Origin: Gongronella butleri
Lineage: Eukaryota; Mucoromycota; Mucoromycetes; Mucorales; Cunninghamellaceae
Assembly (NCBI GenBank): GCA_025201375.1
Contig: JAIWZP010000052.1
Span: forward strand, 145,016-209,015
Direction: 5' to 3'
Length of the DNA: 64,000 bases
Shown: positions 7,700 to 16,110 of the stretch, one piece after another
Position numbering within the stretch: the first letter of the stretch is position 1
Layout: each line of letters opens with the position of its first letter
The notes under the pieces: generated by a model
What the model was told of the DNA's origin: nothing
Databases searched by the model: none
Seen by the model: only the letters and a program-made list of their open reading frames with translations
Program-made: the position numbers and the translations under genes

Positions 7700-10009
7700 G
7701 AATCAACCAATGCAGTATTCGTGATCTCTGCTCTGGTGCAAAACACATGACCCTTCATGTCTCTCACGTCTCAGCGCGTCAAATGAAACAACGAAACACT
7801 TTTTCATAGTGTTGTACTGAATGACCATTTCAACTTTTTTATATCATAATTTTGCGTTTCTTGTGCGTGGTGTATGATACCTCTTAAATTTGGCGCGGAC
7901 ATTGCTGCAAGCATGAGTGCATGACACAACATACGGTATCTATTCCCTGTTGCCTGTTCGAAAAAAAACAGTCAGCAAACGCCCGAGAAAGTGTACTGTA
8001 CAAATGCACAGTTTTCATCCCTTTGTGATTTATCGTATCATACAACAACAACAGCACCAACGTGGTTGATCTGTCCAATTTTAAATCTCAGGGCGTCAGT
8101 GGACAGAAATTGACGCGTCTGATGACTGCGTTTCAATACCAGAAAAAGTGCAAAAAAGGACGCAAAAAAGGACGCCTTTGCCTTTAAAAAACGAAAAAGC
8201 GTGTTTTTCAGACTTTGCCGACATGCTGTGCCTCCAGAATTTTTTTACAGCCTACTGTAGCTGCCTGCTAATGAAAAATGCGTCAAGCATAAGCTACGAC
8301 CCTGTGCTCAATACGAACCCACCCGATTTTTTTTGGACTCGAAAAAGCAAAAACCCTCATATTTGTACTATTTTGCATTCATCTCGCCATCTGCATGGTT
8401 GGCCCCTCTCAAAAATAGCCGCATCGAATTCAGCTCAGAATTTGCAACGAAAAAGCTTAAACCCCGCCAAAGCGCTACGACCACTTTTGAAAAATTCAGG
8501 GGTCACTCAGGGGTCACACATTTCAATCTCCGAAAATGCCAAATTTGGGAAATTTCGAACTCCGAGTGATCAATGCATCCCAAACAGGTAATTCCGACAA
8601 TTTGCTACAGGCAGGCAAAGTGGCAGGTCGCCCCAGCTTACGAAAAATGACCAAAGAGAGACGCATGAACGGCGATCGACCGAGAAAAGTGCCATCTTTG
8701 GGCAAGATTTTTTGCAAAAATTTAAGGTTTGACACTTCCAAATTAAGGTGGTGGATTGCATGGAAGTTTTATTTTTTTTTAATTTTTTAATTTTTTGGTT
8801 TGCAGATTTTTATGCGCCGAGTGGGCTGCAGGCTGGTGAAATGACCCGATGCCAAAAGTTCAAACCCAAGCTAGCGCACTGCAAGTCATCTCATTAGATG
8901 CTTCGCACCCTTGTTTGTTAGTAAAACTGGAATAAAAATCACACGTTTATTAGACCGTTGTCGAGAGCATGGCGATCAAAAATTTTGATGAAAAAGTGGA
9001 TTTTCTCTGCGAGTTTTAGCCATCCATAGATGAAACTGGTCTCATTCGATAGAGATTCAACTAGTGCTTTCGACATGTTAAGAACACCGTGGGTTGTTTT
9101 ATCAGTTGCCGGGAAAAGTGAGTCCGAAAATTAATCCAATGTTTGATCGACTTTTGCAGGCGTGCAAAGTTCGTCCATCGGGCAAGCAAACAATCCAAAA
9201 ACGGCATTCAAATTTATCTCTTTCGAACGATGCCATTTTCAACGCGATCCACAAGATTTTTCGAGCACGACCAATGCTAAATTTGTGAAAATGACGGCAT
9301 TCTGGATTCGTCTGCACAAGGAACAAGGTGATCTGTGGTTGTTAAGAGTTTGTGAGAAATGGACGCCCAAAAATAACCTAACGCATAGGTTTGGAGAGGC
9401 GACACAACTGTAGTTTGTGGTGATTAACACCAGATTTGTGAAAATCATGGAAGAGTTGCCAATTTTCTAAAATTGTCGACAGCAGCCGAATCACCTACTG
9501 GTTTTTAAAAAGTGACGTGCCAAAATTGCCTAATGGCCAATTTTGGGACCGATCCAATCACTGTTTGTGGCATTCAGTATTGCATTTGCGAAAATTCAAG
9601 CAATCAGCGCATATCTCGACAACGGTCAGAGCGACCTCTGATCTTCATTTTTTTTCTGAAAAGAGGAGTGTTAAAAAACACAGGACGTTAGGTTTGGTCG
9701 TGATTGAAGCACTATTTTACCGCGAAATGATTTTTTGAAAAATGCGTTCCAGCCAAAATTTCAGCAATGTCAAGTTGCTGGCCGAACCAACTGAGTTCGA
9801 TATCGGAGATTTAATTTTTTTGAAACGAAAAGAGCCGAAAACTATAGTTGGGAAAGTTTCTTCATGGCGTTGTGATGAGTCTTTGGTGGTGAAATGAATT
9901 TTTTTTCGATTTTTAGAAAAAAAAGTTGGTCAGGTCAAAATGCATCTGGAGGGTCCCATCTTAAAGAGATTCATTCCCAGCAGAAAATTCAAATCCGTTT
10001 TTTGGCAAC
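7700..10009. repeat. Repeat island 1: modular non-coding repeats
   Basis: No ORF with coding character. About 8190-9300 is a diverged direct copy of about 50745-51880; shared landmarks include GTGCCTCCAGAATTTTTTTA, TTCAGGGGTCACTCAGGGGT and CAAGATTTTTTGCAAAAATT. About 9355-9640 matches about 30825-31115 (landmarks AATGGACGCCC and AGTTGCCAAC/ATTTTCTAAAATTGTCG). Both pairs are in the same orientation. Confidence 0.75.
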
Positions 10010-10012
10010 CTA

Positions 10013-10255
10013 GGCGATCGGGCAAGTCTTTTTGTTCAAAATTTGTCTAATTGTTTAAAACGCGTCTAGATAATCATTTGCAAACCAATTGATTACGTAA
10101 TCGGGACCGAAGCAAAGACACGGGTATAAGGCCACAGTGTCTTCCCGGGAGACAATGTTCAGTGCAATTAAAAAGACTTTAAAGGCATAGATGTCCTATA
10201 AAATAAATGTTGATCTATCATACTAAGCACAGGCAACCAATTATGACCGACCTCC
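10013..10255 (+). repeat. Left direct terminal repeat of the 10-13.8 kb element
   Basis: Matches 13547-13789 base for base except one position (G at about 10091, A in the right copy). Holds a perfect palindrome GATTACGTAATC and a 7-bp inverted repeat AAGACAC (10115-10121) / GTGTCTT (10137-10143) around a 15-nt loop. Confidence 0.92.
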
Positions 10256-10267
10256 TTGTTTTAAATA

Positions 10268-11719
10268 TTAACCCTCAGTAATGGTGGTAAGCATACCGGT
10301 ATATTCTTGTACCATGTTCCCATCGTCGTTAAATTCGTCCATTGATAGCCACCTATTATGTCTGTTGTCATATCCAATCCATTTTACTCTGTATTGTTGG
10401 ATGCCATTAGGGGTATGACGATGATTAATAATCCTCTCAACCTCGTAATTACCGGTACTCTGATCGGCATCTTGCATTACCATCTCTTCTTCAACATTAG
10501 TGCTAACAATACAATTCCTCCCTTGTGCAAAAGCATCTTCAATAGTAAGATTAAAAAGCTCTTGTTGTATTGTCTCTATTTTCTCTTTATGCGCACGTCT
10601 GTCAGATATGCTCAAAATGTCGACGACATCATAAATAGAACTAGTAGAAGCAGTACCACCGTAATAATCAAAGTCTTTATGCATCCAAAATGTATGATGA
10701 TCTGTTTGTTGAAGTTGTCCCATGGCAACAAACTTTTTCATGTTGCTTAAAACGCATGCCAACTTGAATTGTGCCGTAAAGACAGCAGTTTCAGATACGC
10801 GGATCACAGATTTGCCATTAAATCGATGGAAAAGATGACCAAGCTCTCCAAAACGAGATTCTATAGATGACCTAAACCCGCCAAGCAGCTGGTTATAAGC
10901 TATCTCTTCTGCACTAAGATTTACACCTCTTGATCTTCTCACAGGAGTTACAAAGCTCTCAATCTGAAGATGGGGGTTCATGTGCAATATACGATTTATA
11001 AATAGGGTATATCCTCCATCCACACAAACGACATCAAAGCGACTTATTTTATCAGATAAATCCATCGAAACAAGCATCGAACCATCATTATTTGCAGCAC
11101 ATGGTGCAGCCTCTGAAACAAACAAAATCATGCTATTGATATCCATGCCTACCTGGGTGCGAAAGCCAGATTTCTTTAATTTGTAAGAATAATAATCAGC
11201 TCTCGATGATGCATTTATATAGGTTGCTCGTGAATCGTGACCATCAATCATCATCGTTACATGTTTAAACTCGTTAGGATTCATTTCTCTTGCATACATT
11301 ACTCTAATCTTTACATTCGAAAACATCACGGCTAGGCATTCATCTAATTTTTTATTTAGCCAGTCCACTTGCTTTGAATAAAAGGCTTTGTAAATGGTAT
11401 TGAAGGTGCTTTTGGGTATAAATTGCCCCATTTGATCCATGGACGCACCGGTCAATAGATGATACAATATCAAAAGGCCTTTCTCCACTCCACGATATGG
11501 TCCAGGATAATCTCTATTGCTAAATAATACTGTCAAAAAGAAATATACAGGTATATAGCCCAAACGTTCAAGCACGTAATTTTTTACCATCTCTATACCA
11601 AGTATTCCCTTTATTTCAGATCGATGGTTCTCTCTTTCAACAATGGGCCAGTCATCATTCAGAAATGACCAATATATTCTAACCAAATATTGAAATAACT
11701 GTCTAAGATCATCGTTCAT
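10268..11719 (-). CDS. PIF/Harbinger-like DDE transposase with C-terminal chromodomain
   Basis: A 483-aa intronless protein expected to cut and join element ends in the nucleus. The DDE_Tnp_4/Harbinger layout is visible: first Asp in KHVTMMIDGHDSR (D159, D162 nearby), second in DVVCVDGGYT (D234), and Glu in FRSSIESRFGELGHLFHRF (E287), where the E-x3-FG-x-L...F pattern is typical of the family. Helical sequence between residues 75 and 130 precedes the catalytic core. The C terminus (about 424-463, NYEVERI...YRVKWIGY...NRWLSMDEF) is a chromodomain with the expected aromatic residues Y425, W447 and W457, so it may steer the enzyme to methylated histone H3 (family knowledge). The ORF stops 13 bp from the left terminal repeat. 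Its AT-rich codon use differs from the GC-rich host genes nearby. It looks intact. Confidence 0.85.
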   Translation of the reverse strand: MNDDLRQLFQYLVRIYWSFLNDDWPIVERENHRSEIKGILGIEMVKNYVLERLGYIPVYFFLTVLFSNRDYPGPYRGVEKGLLILYHLLTGASMDQMGQFIPKSTFNTIYKAFYSKQVDWLNKKLDECLAVMFSNVKIRVMYAREMNPNEFKHVTMMIDGHDSRATYINASSRADYYSYKLKKSGFRTQVGMDINSMILFVSEAAPCAANNDGSMLVSMDLSDKISRFDVVCVDGGYTLFINRILHMNPHLQIESFVTPVRRSRGVNLSAEEIAYNQLLGGFRSSIESRFGELGHLFHRFNGKSVIRVSETAVFTAQFKLACVLSNMKKFVAMGQLQQTDHHTFWMHKDFDYYGGTASTSSIYDVVDILSISDRRAHKEKIETIQQELFNLTIEDAFAQGRNCIVSTNVEEEMVMQDADQSTGNYEVERIINHRHTPNGIQQYRVKWIGYDNRHNRWLSMDEFNDDGNMVQEYTGMLTTITEG

Positions 11720-11856
11720 CTTGCCTTTGATCTCATGTATAGTGCATTCAAATAAAGCCCCGTTTTAAAATGGTCACATGATTAATCATTTATGTGAAGA
11801 GCTATTTATTTAATCAAACGCCGACGACCAAGCAAGATTTGTAAAGTCTGTGCAAT
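11720..11856. promoter_or_regulatory. Shared divergent promoter with a 12-bp palindrome
   Basis: The 137-bp gap between the two element genes must hold both promoters. It contains a perfect palindrome ATGATTAATCAT (11778-11789) nested between TCAC (11774-11777) and GTGA (11794-11797), a likely binding site for a dimeric protein. That one of the two element proteins binds it is inference. Confidence 0.5.
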
Positions 11857-13539
11857 ATGATGACCAACACTATTGTAAACTCTTTCCTTTATGAACATTC
11901 CCAATACCTAAACGACCTTTATGGTATTGACTACACAGAAAATTATGACAAACTTTATGGATGGACAGATTTTACGAGCATTTTCGTTGACAGCATTATG
12001 CTATGGTGCGCCTTTGACACGAATTGTGACGTTACCCAAAAGATCAAGTTCTTCATGGGTATCATCAAGAGCTGCTTGTTATCTGCCTTTGAAAATCATC
12101 AGTTTCGCATAAAATATATCAGAAAAGGCATATGGCAGAGCTTTGATCTCGCATCTGAGGAAATGGAAATGCGTCAATCATGGAATGAAGTAGGTTACCT
12201 TGGTATTAATGTCACGTTTCATAATATTAGCTTGAATGACGTACTTCATTCCTTGCAACAAGAGGCTCTCGCAAGATTGCATGAAAATAGGGTCTTAATT
12301 CGAAGTATCGATGTGACAGTTGATTGCGCACGCATTTCGACGCGTAAAATCATCGAAAAATACCTCCTGTCACGCAATCTTGCCACCATATTTGATATTG
12401 TGAATGACCGACGAAAAACTGGTGATAACTGCATCTCTTACCTAGGCAAGTGTCCCCAATTGAACAACGCAAATACTCGTACGAAAATCTATAACAAGTT
12501 CATTCAGGCCTTGGAAAGCACGCAAGTTCTTCAGCTCCTAGGATCACGTCTCAGCCATCTTGTTGCCAGTCCAGATACCTCATCCATGGAAAGACTAAAG
12601 CGTTTTCTAGGTGCTGGATATACTCGTATCGAATTAACCATCTACGGCAGCACGCTCTTTGCTCCCACCTCATACGAACATGCAATGAACAACTTGCTGG
12701 ATGATCTTGCAGAATGCCCCACTTTCAATGTTCCCTTGTACGAGCAATGGCACAAGATTGTCGATAAGCTTTCCCAAGTTACTGCAGTGTACATCGAGAG
12801 TGCAGGTACTTTTGCTTACTGTCATTGGTGGAACTCACTTACAAGGCGAATGCAGGGTATTTGTAAAGATAAAATTAGCAGAGATAAACTTGAGTGCTTG
12901 TTAGCCAACTTCAGCTTCAACGACAGAATTATCCACTGCTTCTTTATTGAGCAAATCACTGCTGACACCACCGGTAACAATCACTCGTATGACGTTATTA
13001 AACACGAGCGTTACCAAAGAGCTGAAGGATGTAACGCCATGACGTTGGTACCTGGTCTGTCCAATTCCTTGTTTCCTTCCCGTAGTCGTCTTCAAATAGA
13101 AAATATCAGCATGTTTGCCGACGTTGGCCTTGATATCTATAAGAACATCTACATCGAGTGGCCTAACCATCGCCTGGAAAATTCTATCAATCGCAGTTTG
13201 GCGCCGTTGGTCAAGATAGAAGATTCCTTTAGCATGTTATCCTTGACCAATGCGCTCCCAGAGTCATTGATCGTCATAAACAGCCCTCAGGTATCATCAT
13301 ACAGAGCTGATTATTCATGTCTTGCCATTGGTGAAACTTACACTGTAAATAAGTATGGATACGCGTCGTTCAGAAATAAAACGTATCTACATCTGGTCCT
13401 CAATAATGGCATTGTGAAAGCACGCTGCAGCAGTGATGAATTGCAAGGAGTAATCGAAGCAAATATCGCTGGAAATGTAGTCTTTAGCTTTATTGTTACT
13501 CGCAAGGTAAAAAGAACCGTTTACGTTAATATCATCTGA
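11857..13539 (+). CDS. 560-aa element protein with motifs like replication-initiation (Rep) proteins
   Basis: Intact, intronless second gene of the element, starting at ATG 11857 and ending 5 bp before the right terminal repeat. I do not recognise it as a whole. The centre has a motif series seen in plasmid/phage replication-initiation factors of the Rep_trans type: LIRSIDVTVDC (D151, D156), CISYLGKC (195-197), RTKIYNKFIQALE (Y212, K214, E220) and GYTRIELTIYG (R257, E259), in the family's order and rough spacing. The catalytic assignment is unproven. Flanking regions (1-145 and 265-560) have no family I can name, and no Myb/trihelix domain is visible, although a Myb-like protein is the usual PIF/Harbinger partner. 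Alternatives are a DNA-binding accessory factor or a protein of unknown fold. Confidence 0.55.
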   Translation: MMTNTIVNSFLYEHSQYLNDLYGIDYTENYDKLYGWTDFTSIFVDSIMLWCAFDTNCDVTQKIKFFMGIIKSCLLSAFENHQFRIKYIRKGIWQSFDLASEEMEMRQSWNEVGYLGINVTFHNISLNDVLHSLQQEALARLHENRVLIRSIDVTVDCARISTRKIIEKYLLSRNLATIFDIVNDRRKTGDNCISYLGKCPQLNNANTRTKIYNKFIQALESTQVLQLLGSRLSHLVASPDTSSMERLKRFLGAGYTRIELTIYGSTLFAPTSYEHAMNNLLDDLAECPTFNVPLYEQWHKIVDKLSQVTAVYIESAGTFAYCHWWNSLTRRMQGICKDKISRDKLECLLANFSFNDRIIHCFFIEQITADTTGNNHSYDVIKHERYQRAEGCNAMTLVPGLSNSLFPSRSRLQIENISMFADVGLDIYKNIYIEWPNHRLENSINRSLAPLVKIEDSFSMLSLTNALPESLIVINSPQVSSYRADYSCLAIGETYTVNKYGYASFRNKTYLHLVLNNGIVKARCSSDELQGVIEANIAGNVVFSFIVTRKVKRTVYVNII

Positions 13540-13546
13540 TGCTGTA

Positions 13547-13789
13547 GGCGATCGGGCAAGTCTTTTTGTTCAAAATTTGTCTAATTGTTTAAAACGCGTC
13601 TAGATAATCATTTGCAAACCAATTAATTACGTAATCGGGACCGAAGCAAAGACACGGGTATAAGGCCACAGTGTCTTCCCGGGAGACAATGTTCAGTGCA
13701 ATTAAAAAGACTTTAAAGGCATAGATGTCCTATAAAATAAATGTTGATCTATCATACTAAGCACAGGCAACCAATTATGACCGACCTCC
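13547..13789 (+). repeat. Right direct terminal repeat of the 10-13.8 kb element
   Basis: Same 243-bp sequence and orientation as 10013-10255, with A instead of G in the palindrome (AATTACGTAATC). The AAGACAC/GTGTCTT stem is at 13649-13655 and 13671-13677. It ends at the CTA flank. Confidence 0.92.
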
Positions 13790-13792
13790 CTA

Positions 13793-14810
13793 GACACCAG
13801 CGCTTTTAGAGTCATCTCATTAGATGCTTTGATCCCCTCTTCTTGTTAAGCAAATCTGTAATAAAAATCGGGGGTTGACTTGACGGATCGCGAGGAAATG
13901 GTGATCTAAGTCAAATTTTAGTAGAAACTGGAATTTCTAGACCAGTTTAGGTCTTAGGTCAGTGAAACTGGTCTTACAGTATTTAACAGAGAATCAAATT
14001 CTACATTTTTATCACCGCAAGTTTGCCGTGGGTTGCTTTGTTCGTTTCCGAGAAAATAAATTGGGATTGAAATATTAAATTTGGCGCCACAAGTGTACAA
14101 ATATTGCACATCGCTCGGCTTTGCTGGGCTGAGACAAACTGGCCCTCGCGCGCGTCTTGTTCGGTTTGTAAATTTTCAGCATGATCGAATGAAAATTTAG
14201 CGCGCCAGGGCCGAAATTGTGAATTTCTAGAGAAATATCATCGATTTTCTCGTCAACGGCCTGATCAAACCCCGGTTCTTATTATTTTGTTTCCGTGAAG
14301 TACTGTATGTACCGGTAAGTCTACATTATACGACGGTAGTATCCTAAATACTACATTGGCCTTTTGAGTGCACTTGGCTTTGCGTTCTTGATGCTTTGAC
14401 AGACGTTCTAGAGGTAATTGATGATTCTAATAAATCGCAGCATGGTGAAGTCTGAAATGCACTTCAGATTGCTGCATTTTGAGCACTCAGCGTTTTGCAC
14501 AGATTTCGCCCTGTCATTGCAGTTTCTGCTCTAATACAGGTGCCTCAAAAATCGCTCAATTCGTAATTCTGTTCCGCGTTGCCGATGTAAAATTTGATTT
14601 AGAATCGAATAAAGTTTTCACACGGTGTCCGTTAACTTAATAAAATTTCGAGATAATCGCACTTTACGCGATTTTACAGTATATCACACAATTTAATGTT
14701 CTAGGCGTACAGTATTTGATCCCGGAAAATTCAACATAGGCCAAATTTGGGATCAGATGAGCATCAAGTTTCTGATGAGAATGCGCCAGTTTCATGATGG
14801 ATGTAAAAAA
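13793..14810. repeat. Repeat island 1, continued: module shared with 55 kb
   Basis: About 13805-14295 is a diverged direct copy of about 54975-55405 (landmark AATAAAAATCGGGGGTTGAC and the string following it; CTCGTCAACGGCC near the end of both). The rest is AT-rich with no coding ORF. Confidence 0.65.
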
Positions 14811-14814
14811 TGGG

Positions 14815-16110
14815 GTAAAATCACCAACATTTGGTCTCGCACAGCGGTAACGGCTAAGCGCCCCAACGCGTGAGACGCCTCAAATGAATCAGTAAGCAAA
14901 CGCGGTGAAAGCGCTTGTGATTTGGAGACGATATCGCGTCAAGTTCTCGGCGAGTTAGCTTTCAGGAGTGCTTTGACCCTGCTTTGGCCCTGATTTTACA
15001 TAAAATGCATTTTCTTAGGACCGAGTGATCCGATTCACAAAAAAAATTGGAATCGTTGAATTTTTGAGTCGACGTTTCATCGGTCTAAATTTTGGGCCAG
15101 ATGGTGGGCCTCATCGGGAGAAACGGGTAAAATATTGTTTTGCGCTGGGGTTTACACTAGCAAACACAAATCTTGCGATTTCTCAGGACTGAGTGATCCG
15201 ATACATTTGCGAAACAATTCAACACCTTTGAAAAATTGGGTCTACGCTACCATCATTTGATCCAGATCTTGGGCCAGAGGAGCAAGTACAGTATCATTTG
15301 AGGGAGCGCCAGATCCATAGCCGTAAAGGGGAGTAAAATCACCAACATTTGGTCTCGTACGGTGGCTACAGCTGAGCGCCCCGACGCGTGAGTCACCTCA
15401 AATGCATTAGTGAGCAAACGCGGTGAAATTGCTTGTGGTTTGGAGATATCGCGTCAATTTTACGGCGAGTTAGCCTTCAGGGATCGTTTTGGTTCTGATT
15501 TGGCTCTAATTTTACACAAAATGCATTTTCTCAAGATTGAGCTATCCGATCCCTGGAAAAGCTTGAACCCATTGAAGTTTTGAGTCGGTTATCCAGTGGT
15601 CTAAATTTGGCGCCATGTAGTCAGGCTCATCGGGAGGAACTCGCATAATATTATTTGGCGCTAGGTTTTCTCTAGCAAACACGAATCTCGCGATTTCTCG
15701 AGACTGAGTGATCTGATCCGCTAAAAAAATTAACACCGCTGGAGACTTGGGTCTACCATTAGCTGGTCCAAATTTGGGGTCAGATAAGCAAGTTTCTGAG
15801 TAAGTGCCAAATTCATTGGCATAAAGGTAAAACCACCTCCATTTGGTGTCGTACCACGGCGACGGCTGAGCACCCCGACACGCGACGCACTCAAATGAAT
15901 CAGCGAGCAAACGCGCGCGGTAAAAGCGCTTATGGTTTTGGGACATCGCGTCGATTCCTCGGCGAGTTAGACTTCAGGGGTCGTTTTGGCCCTGACTTTG
16001 TGCAATACAGTATGCATTTTCTCACGACTGAGTGATCCGATCTTTGAAAAAAAACTTGACATCGTTGAAATTTTGTGTAAATTATGCGTCCTCTAGCTCA
16101 AATATAGGAC
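14815..16110 (+). repeat. Diverged tandem array, unit about 515 bp, about 2.5 copies
   Basis: Copies begin near 14815, 15330 and 15830 (the last truncated near 16110). Each opens with a version of AAATCACCAACATTTGGTCTCG, continues through AGCAAACGCGGTGAAA and GGCGAGTTAG, and carries ACTGAGTGATCCGAT. The 134-codon minus ORF inside it (15542-15946) is an accident of the repeat. A partial unit also occurs at about 30600-30830. Confidence 0.75.

Follow-up and report, generated by a model that had tools for sequence, protein, structure and literature searches.

A PIF/Harbinger-type transposon of Gongronella butleri with long terminal direct repeats and a predicted Rep_trans-like second protein

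Introduction

In the literature that we found, long direct repeats in a DNA transposon have been reported for one lineage, the KolobokP elements of animals, and the available text of that report leaves the mechanism open and describes the layout as unlike that of any other DNA transposon (PMC9587614). We describe here an element from the fungus Gongronella butleri (assembly GCA_025201375.1) that has this layout with a different transposase and a different partner protein. It occupies positions 10013-13789 of a window of 64,000 nucleotides (contig JAIWZP010000052.1, positions 145,016 to 209,015) and consists of two long terminal direct repeats (LTDRs) around an internal segment (INT), in the order LTDR-INT-LTDR. 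A first-pass annotation made from the letters of the window had taken this architecture to be one not described before, which the KolobokP report contradicts, although with another transposase superfamily and another nuclease. The layout itself is therefore already known, and the second protein, P2, is the more novel part.

The resemblance to KolobokP, in the part of its description that is available, extends to the short inverted ends of each LTDR, to solo LTDRs within target duplications, to the pairing of a transposase gene with a second, nuclease-like gene, and to a similar length (4.0-4.7 kb in the autonomous oyster families, 3.8 kb here). The components are different. KolobokP has LTDRs of about 450 or 660 bp, a transposase of the Kolobok type, an I-PpoI-like His-Me nuclease and common multimers, and is found in animals (PMC9587614), whereas the fungal element, with its relatives, has LTDRs of 221-243 bp, a DDE_Tnp_4 transposase with a chromodomain, a Rep_trans-like protein, and no multimers seen among the fetched loci. 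With the PIF/Harbinger elements, or the wider PIF/Harbinger-IS5 (PHIS) group, the element shares the type of DDE transposase, a 3-bp target duplication, short inverted ends and two genes, but it departs from the available account of that group (PMC4482050) in its long direct repeats, its chromodomain, a partner without a convincing Myb/SANT match, and duplications that go beyond TWA.

P2 is most like RepSTK1, RepD and RelSt3 of the Rep_trans/MOBT enzymes, with which, as far as the accessible parts of the reports describe them (PMC4797284, PMC6499999), it shares a predicted TBP-like fold, three metal-binding acids, a tyrosine within the motif [RK]xYxKxx[EQ] and an RxE motif. It is unlike them in having no detectable sequence similarity and about 270 extra C-terminal residues, and in residing in a eukaryotic host inside a DDE transposon. 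Recognition by structure only has a parallel in Rep-Arvir of archaeal viruses, whose relation to Rep_trans is not recognisable by sequence, although these are archaeal replicons with a different tyrosine motif and, in the available text, no mention of a transposase (PMC13107129). According to the available part of a 2026 paper, nickases of the Rep_trans/TBP fold are apparently confined to bacteria and a distant archaeal branch. In the titles and abstracts among the matches listed, our literature search found no PIF/Harbinger element with direct repeats and no eukaryotic transposon with a Rep_trans-like protein; subscription papers and Repbase lay outside its scope. Helitrons are eukaryotic transposons with a rolling-circle type HUH enzyme and a helicase, and they have no DDE transposase, no direct terminal repeats and no target duplication.

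Results

The window holds one mobile element whose boundaries are the outer ends of its LTDRs. The left (10013-10255) and right (13547-13789) LTDRs, both on the plus strand, are 243 bp long and differ by a single mismatch (position 79, G/A), and CTA stands on both flanks, at 10010-10012 and 13790-13792. The weak inverted ends of the LTDR, GGCGATCGGGCA and GGAGGTCGGTCA (the latter the reverse complement of the right end), are alike at 9/12 positions. Between the repeats lie two divergent open reading frames (ORFs), a transposase gene of 483 residues on the minus strand (10268-11719) and the P2 gene of 560 residues on the plus strand (11857-13539), separated by a 137-bp gap (11720-11856) that is probably a shared promoter of both genes. 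The first-pass annotation had reported the same repeats, ends, flanks and genes, and our comparisons agree with it. Its observation that nothing retroviral is present is correct for the enzymes, none of which was found in a Pfam scan of the two main ORFs, and a retroelement reading was rejected on that ground; the qualification is that the C-terminal part of the transposase is a chromodomain, which is also present in some retroelement integrases.

The element is inserted in a host dispersed repeat that forms its left (9700-10012) and right (13793-14300) flanks. A first look gave 502 candidates for this repeat genome-wide, of which 40 were scored; it is at least 650 bp long and about 75-81% alike among the copies compared. 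Nine of ten fetched copies align across the window junction without the element, the tenth not spanning it, and the triplet at the empty junction is exactly CTA in six of these nine and has one changed base in three. When the joined flanks of 30 insertions (11 whole elements and 19 solo LTDRs, leaving out the interrupted unit on contig C20 described below) were compared with fetched loci, 13 matched across the joined junction, and in 16 selected junction pairs representing 11 insertions (five whole, six solo) the triplet stands once at the junction, small indels occur close by, and some pairs show base changes.

The source genome (33.0 Mb in 110 contigs) yielded 42 matches to the whole unit. 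The family of the window element, F1, has three whole units, namely that in the window and two at further loci (C45 and C100) that are 99% identical to it, together with the C20 unit, which is split by about 7.6 kb of inserted DNA. F2 contributes five whole elements with 221-bp repeats, F4 two with repeats of 224-227 bp, and F5 one with 243-bp repeats, so that there are 12 whole LTDR-INT-LTDR elements in four families, C20 included. F3 is present as remnants and solo repeats only, and F6 as a damaged element on C105 whose repeats match over a 154-bp start. Identical 3-bp flanks enclose 11 of the 12 whole elements (CTA, ATA, TAT, TAG, TTT three times, TTG, TAA, ACA and AGA); TAA alone among these 11 fits TWA, which is not the rule here. 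The exception, L006, is flanked by ATT and AAT, and its two repeats differ at position 152. The DNA inserted in the C20 unit (L036, G000:C20:410754-410885) contains an open reading frame of 524 aa that matches the chromodomain, and may be a retroelement of the chromovirus type.

With the repeats of three families as queries, 20 full-length solo LTDRs were recovered (seven of F1, seven of F2 and six of F4), counts that are lower bounds. Two F4 solos within an inverted duplication were counted once and a 59-bp F4 fragment was dropped; identical 3-bp flanks are then present at 7/7 F1, 6/7 F2 and 5/5 distinct F4 solos, with the F2 exception (L050) flanked by CTG and CTC. Twelve F3-like repeats were also found, of which L025 and L028 were set aside as belonging to element remnants; seven of the remaining ten have identical flanks, and those that do not are L017, one copy in L020, and L024. 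Solo LTDRs could have arisen by recombination between two repeats or could move alone in the manner of miniature inverted-repeat transposable elements (MITEs).

Because whole copies recur and empty sites exist, the element ends where its LTDRs end, and nesting does not account for the repeats. Assembly error, chance and nested insertion were rejected on these copies and empty sites. Nothing was found for an artefact of assembly collapse or an unrelated nested insertion, which is made extremely improbable by the empty sites and by the recurrence of the unit at separate loci, each time within a different duplication. The full copies, solo repeats and one-CTA empty sites that the annotation had proposed to seek in the source genome were thus all found, its check on nesting and boundaries came out with the unit at two more loci and once interrupted, and with empty junctions in nine of ten host copies, and its model of a single DDE element with the direct repeats as true ends and a 3-bp duplication is borne out. 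The chromodomain, the character of the second gene, the solo LTDRs and the additional families had escaped it.

Some features of the repeats stand apart from this argument. At about 70.1 and 78.6 kb of the 81-kb contig C102 (L051 and L052, G000:C102) the same solo LTDR occurs with identical near flanks in opposite orientation, which suggests that a large segment is duplicated in inverse orientation or that the assembly has produced a palindrome. LTDRs of L003, L031 and L048 have 3-bp indels, that of L049 one of 4 bp, and L023 also has small insertions; the 3-4-bp insertions are possibly excision footprints of other elements. As to a possible conserved origin hairpin in the LTDR, stems at positions 20-45, a position picked after looking, exceed shuffles in F2, F4 and F5 (matched by 3, 11 and 10 of 500 shuffles) and do not in F1 or F3.

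Within the 12 whole elements the left and right LTDRs are 98.7-100% identical, compared with 41-73% for LTDRs of different families and 41.8-43.8% for shuffled controls. Variants are present in both repeats of one element in several cases (a GTG insertion in L003, G152T in L008 and L027, and C168G in L031), and G152T is also found in one L006 repeat and in the solo L046. There are signs of recent activity, as the annotation had suspected. Plain cut and paste would let the LTDR pair drift, so propagation probably includes a pair-making step, in which one LTDR is made from the other or both from one template. Against the shared variants stand single-sided changes, one each in the window element, C20 and L027, as well as a single-sided 3-bp insertion in L031. 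Gene conversion would also account for near-identical pairs. Host gene conversion is also how the repeats would be evened if this were an ordinary cut-and-paste PHIS element with P2 as a mere DNA-binding partner in a Myb-like role. Most PIF/Harbinger elements do encode a DNA-binding second protein, according to the available text of PMC4482050, but four families that have diverged from one another all have near-identical LTDR pairs, which calls for a process coupled to propagation, and we judge this explanation unlikely, also in view of the P2 residues considered below.

The repeats could alternatively be two MITE copies that came by chance to lie on either side of two genes, in the way of a bacterial composite transposon, with no special mechanism. 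Each LTDR does have weak inverted ends of its own and exists alone with duplications, although four families with different LTDRs share the same layout, the same two genes and near-identical left and right repeats, and the inner junctions of the window element are without target duplication. A chance composite is accordingly very improbable.

P2 is under purifying selection between families, and its window copy has no Pfam match at E<=1. Among 37 relatives Pfam gives only scattered weak single-member matches, and a known nuclease domain was rejected on these results; there is also no convincing Myb/SANT domain, one member of the 37 matching a SANT/Myb-like model at E 0.11. Structure prediction gives the N-terminal domain (residues 37-290; 11965-12726, plus strand) a TBP-like two-lobed sheet, for which 4cij and TBP are the best whole-domain fold matches, with low TM-scores and tied Z; this assignment covers the N-terminal domain and does not extend to the C-terminal half. 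The available text on RepDE (RepSTK1) gives D46 (D9), D142 (D116) and E214 (E196) as metal ligands and Y191 as the tyrosine, accompanied by R189, K193, E196 (Q184) and R212 (R194), and by R140, A144 and D146 (PMC4797284). The P2 counterparts, compared as sequence positions and not as three-dimensional geometry, are D45, D152 and E259 for the acids, Y212 for the tyrosine, K210, K214, Q217 and R257 for its companions, and D156 for D146. Tyr212 (12490-12492), the predicted nucleophile, lies within motif III, KIYNKFIQ (K210-Q217; 12484-12507, plus strand), as defined in PMC4797284, and the D45-D152 spacing of 107 residues equals that of D9-D116 in RepSTK1. In 37 sequences, seven of the nine matching positions are kept in all and D45 and E259 in 36, and the acid-and-tyrosine set persists among relatives of as little as 28% identity. 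When 55 conserved residues were shuffled, the ordered pattern occurred in 0 of 200,000 trials and motif III alone 13 times, with the pattern taken from the available part of PMC4797284, spacing windows set knowing the P2 positions, and R140 and A144 left out. A permissive, non-significant profile alignment of P2 with Rep_trans pairs all four motif regions.

P2 is thus predicted to be a Rep_trans-like tyrosine nickase, with a modelled fold and near-invariant residues that resemble those of the bacterial-plasmid enzymes; since sequence homology is undetectable, the claim is limited to fold and motif order. Several results speak against it. The Rep_trans profile (PF02486) does not match P2 (hhalign E 0.4 and 0.19), the fold scores are middling, and the strictly conserved RepDE residues R140 and A144 have no counterpart, S150 and T154 standing at those places. 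Moreover the best fold matches include TBP, which binds DNA without being an enzyme, as a cut-and-paste element with a simple binding partner might lead one to expect, but an acid-and-tyrosine set conserved at Rep_trans positions would be needless for a pure binder.

Searches for P2 gave 11 phage records at E<=10 (best E 0.3, taken as chance), no plasmid match at E<=1, and 192 pattern matches in IMG/VR contigs, none confirmed. Environmental homologues of P2 and the transposase form pairs with equal longest contigs of 3.3-4.0 kb (P0001/P0050, P0002/P0052, P0005/P0053, P0009/P0057 and others). INT plus one LTDR amounts to 3534 bp, near these lengths, and the contigs could represent circles or elements whose two direct repeats were merged by the assembler.

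Gene 1, by profile match, encodes a DDE transposase of the PHIS group. Pfam detects DDE_Tnp_4 (PF13359, E 5.7e-9; residues 171-326, 10742-11209, minus strand), a C-terminal chromodomain (PF00385, E 2.3e-10; residues 425-473, 10301-10447, minus strand) and nothing else, and an IS5-like NCBIfam match (E 4.9e-4) is below the model cut-off. We read D159, D234 and E287, which all 28 aligned sequences share, as the DDE triad. The chromodomain, absent in two of the 28, has in most members a YEVE-like start and a KWxGY-like core, residues which we take to be an H3K9me-binding cage. Named relatives are from Rhizomucor, Cunninghamella, Apophysomyces, Mortierella and kin. One homologue, P0076 of Cunninghamella blakesleeana, is listed with PF00077 (retropepsin), chromo and DDE_Tnp_4 together, a possible fusion or mis-annotation.

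P2 matches occur at 17 loci, 14 of which also have the transposase and 12 the full repeat pair. Transposase is missing at three, of which C78 is a truncated remnant, C69 lies close to the end of its contig and C47 is a weak fragment. Conversely, C18, C54 and C34 have transposase relatives and no P2 match. No flanking repeat pair is present within the 9-10 kb fetched around each of the first two. At C34 (L040:3095-4514, G000:C34) two direct repeats of 244 bp, 94% alike and starting with GGAGGTCGGTC or similar, enclose part of a transposase gene; a third copy is partial and inverted, and there is no P2 match. The locus thus looks like what is left, after rearrangement, of one more LTDR family. 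Near a transposase-only relative (L041:6714-7081) there is an inverted repeat whose 175-nt arms match perfectly across a spacer of 18 nt.

The genes are divergent in F1-F3 and run in one direction in F4-F6. Across six families, a small sample in which the F3 and F5 genes are partial and most LTDR pairs near background, LTDR similarity correlates with P2 identity at rho 0.50 (4/720 relabelings as high) and with transposase identity at rho 0.22 (141/720). The closest family to F1 is F2 by transposase (86%) and F3 by P2 (73%) and LTDR (72%). P2 tracks the LTDR more closely than the transposase does, which points to an action of P2 on the LTDR and to an exchange of transposase modules.

Beyond the element, three similar stretches about 500 bp apart at window positions 14818-15995 match the flanks of the L005 and L046 insertions; another family of repeated units adjoins the element.

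Discussion

In rolling-circle replicons a nickase acting on direct repeats releases a one-repeat circle through displacement synthesis between the repeats. We propose that the element is a PHIS transposon in which P2 makes such a circle and the DDE transposase integrates it, a mechanism that we infer and hold to be about evenly balanced between right and wrong. P2 would nick inside an LTDR, and the nick would prime displacement synthesis to the next LTDR, giving a circle of one LTDR plus INT. The chromodomain perhaps draws the transposase to methylated chromatin. The transposase would cut the single LTDR of the circle at both ends on opposite strands, so that the 3' tails of the linear form are the two strands of that single LTDR; once these are joined to a target with a 3-bp stagger, fill-in would leave two identical LTDRs between 3-bp duplications. 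The first-pass annotation had suggested that the repeats serve replication or circle formation, and a Rep_trans-like P2 fits that suggestion, at the level of a proposed mechanism.

There is a different way in which P2 could act on the repeats. As proposed for KolobokP, it might nick or break LTDRs, with repair from a full element copying INT into solo repeats or evening a pair, and the transposase alone would move LTDRs and whole units by cut and paste. Such homing-type renewal has the KolobokP precedent (in the available text of PMC9587614), and is in keeping with the plentiful solo LTDRs (the 20 full-length rows in three families), with the co-divergence of P2 and LTDRs, and with L006, whose unlike LTDRs and unlike flanking triplets are as expected after exchange between elements. 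However, the fold and residues of P2 fit a rolling-circle initiator best, no homing nuclease fold is listed among its fold matches (though the listing does not exclude one), and the tandem multimers common in KolobokP were absent from the fetched loci. We consider homing-type renewal rather unlikely.

Returning to the circle mechanism, its broadest form would be a hybrid class in which copying out, as a circle with one repeat, is the work of a nickase of the Rep_trans fold, and reinsertion that of a DDE transposase with a chromodomain, both repeats being remade from the two strands of one, with P2 as the first eukaryotic nickase of the Rep_trans/TBP fold. We advance this only tentatively, as a possibility that falls short of an even chance.

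A second lineage with long direct repeats, belonging to another transposase superfamily and using a different partner enzyme, suggests repeated origins of the layout, each in company with an enzyme that acts on the repeats. Should P2 prove to be a nickase, the Rep_trans fold would extend to eukaryotes, and the idea of a DDE transposon that carries its own copy-out replication would become testable in small, seemingly young elements.

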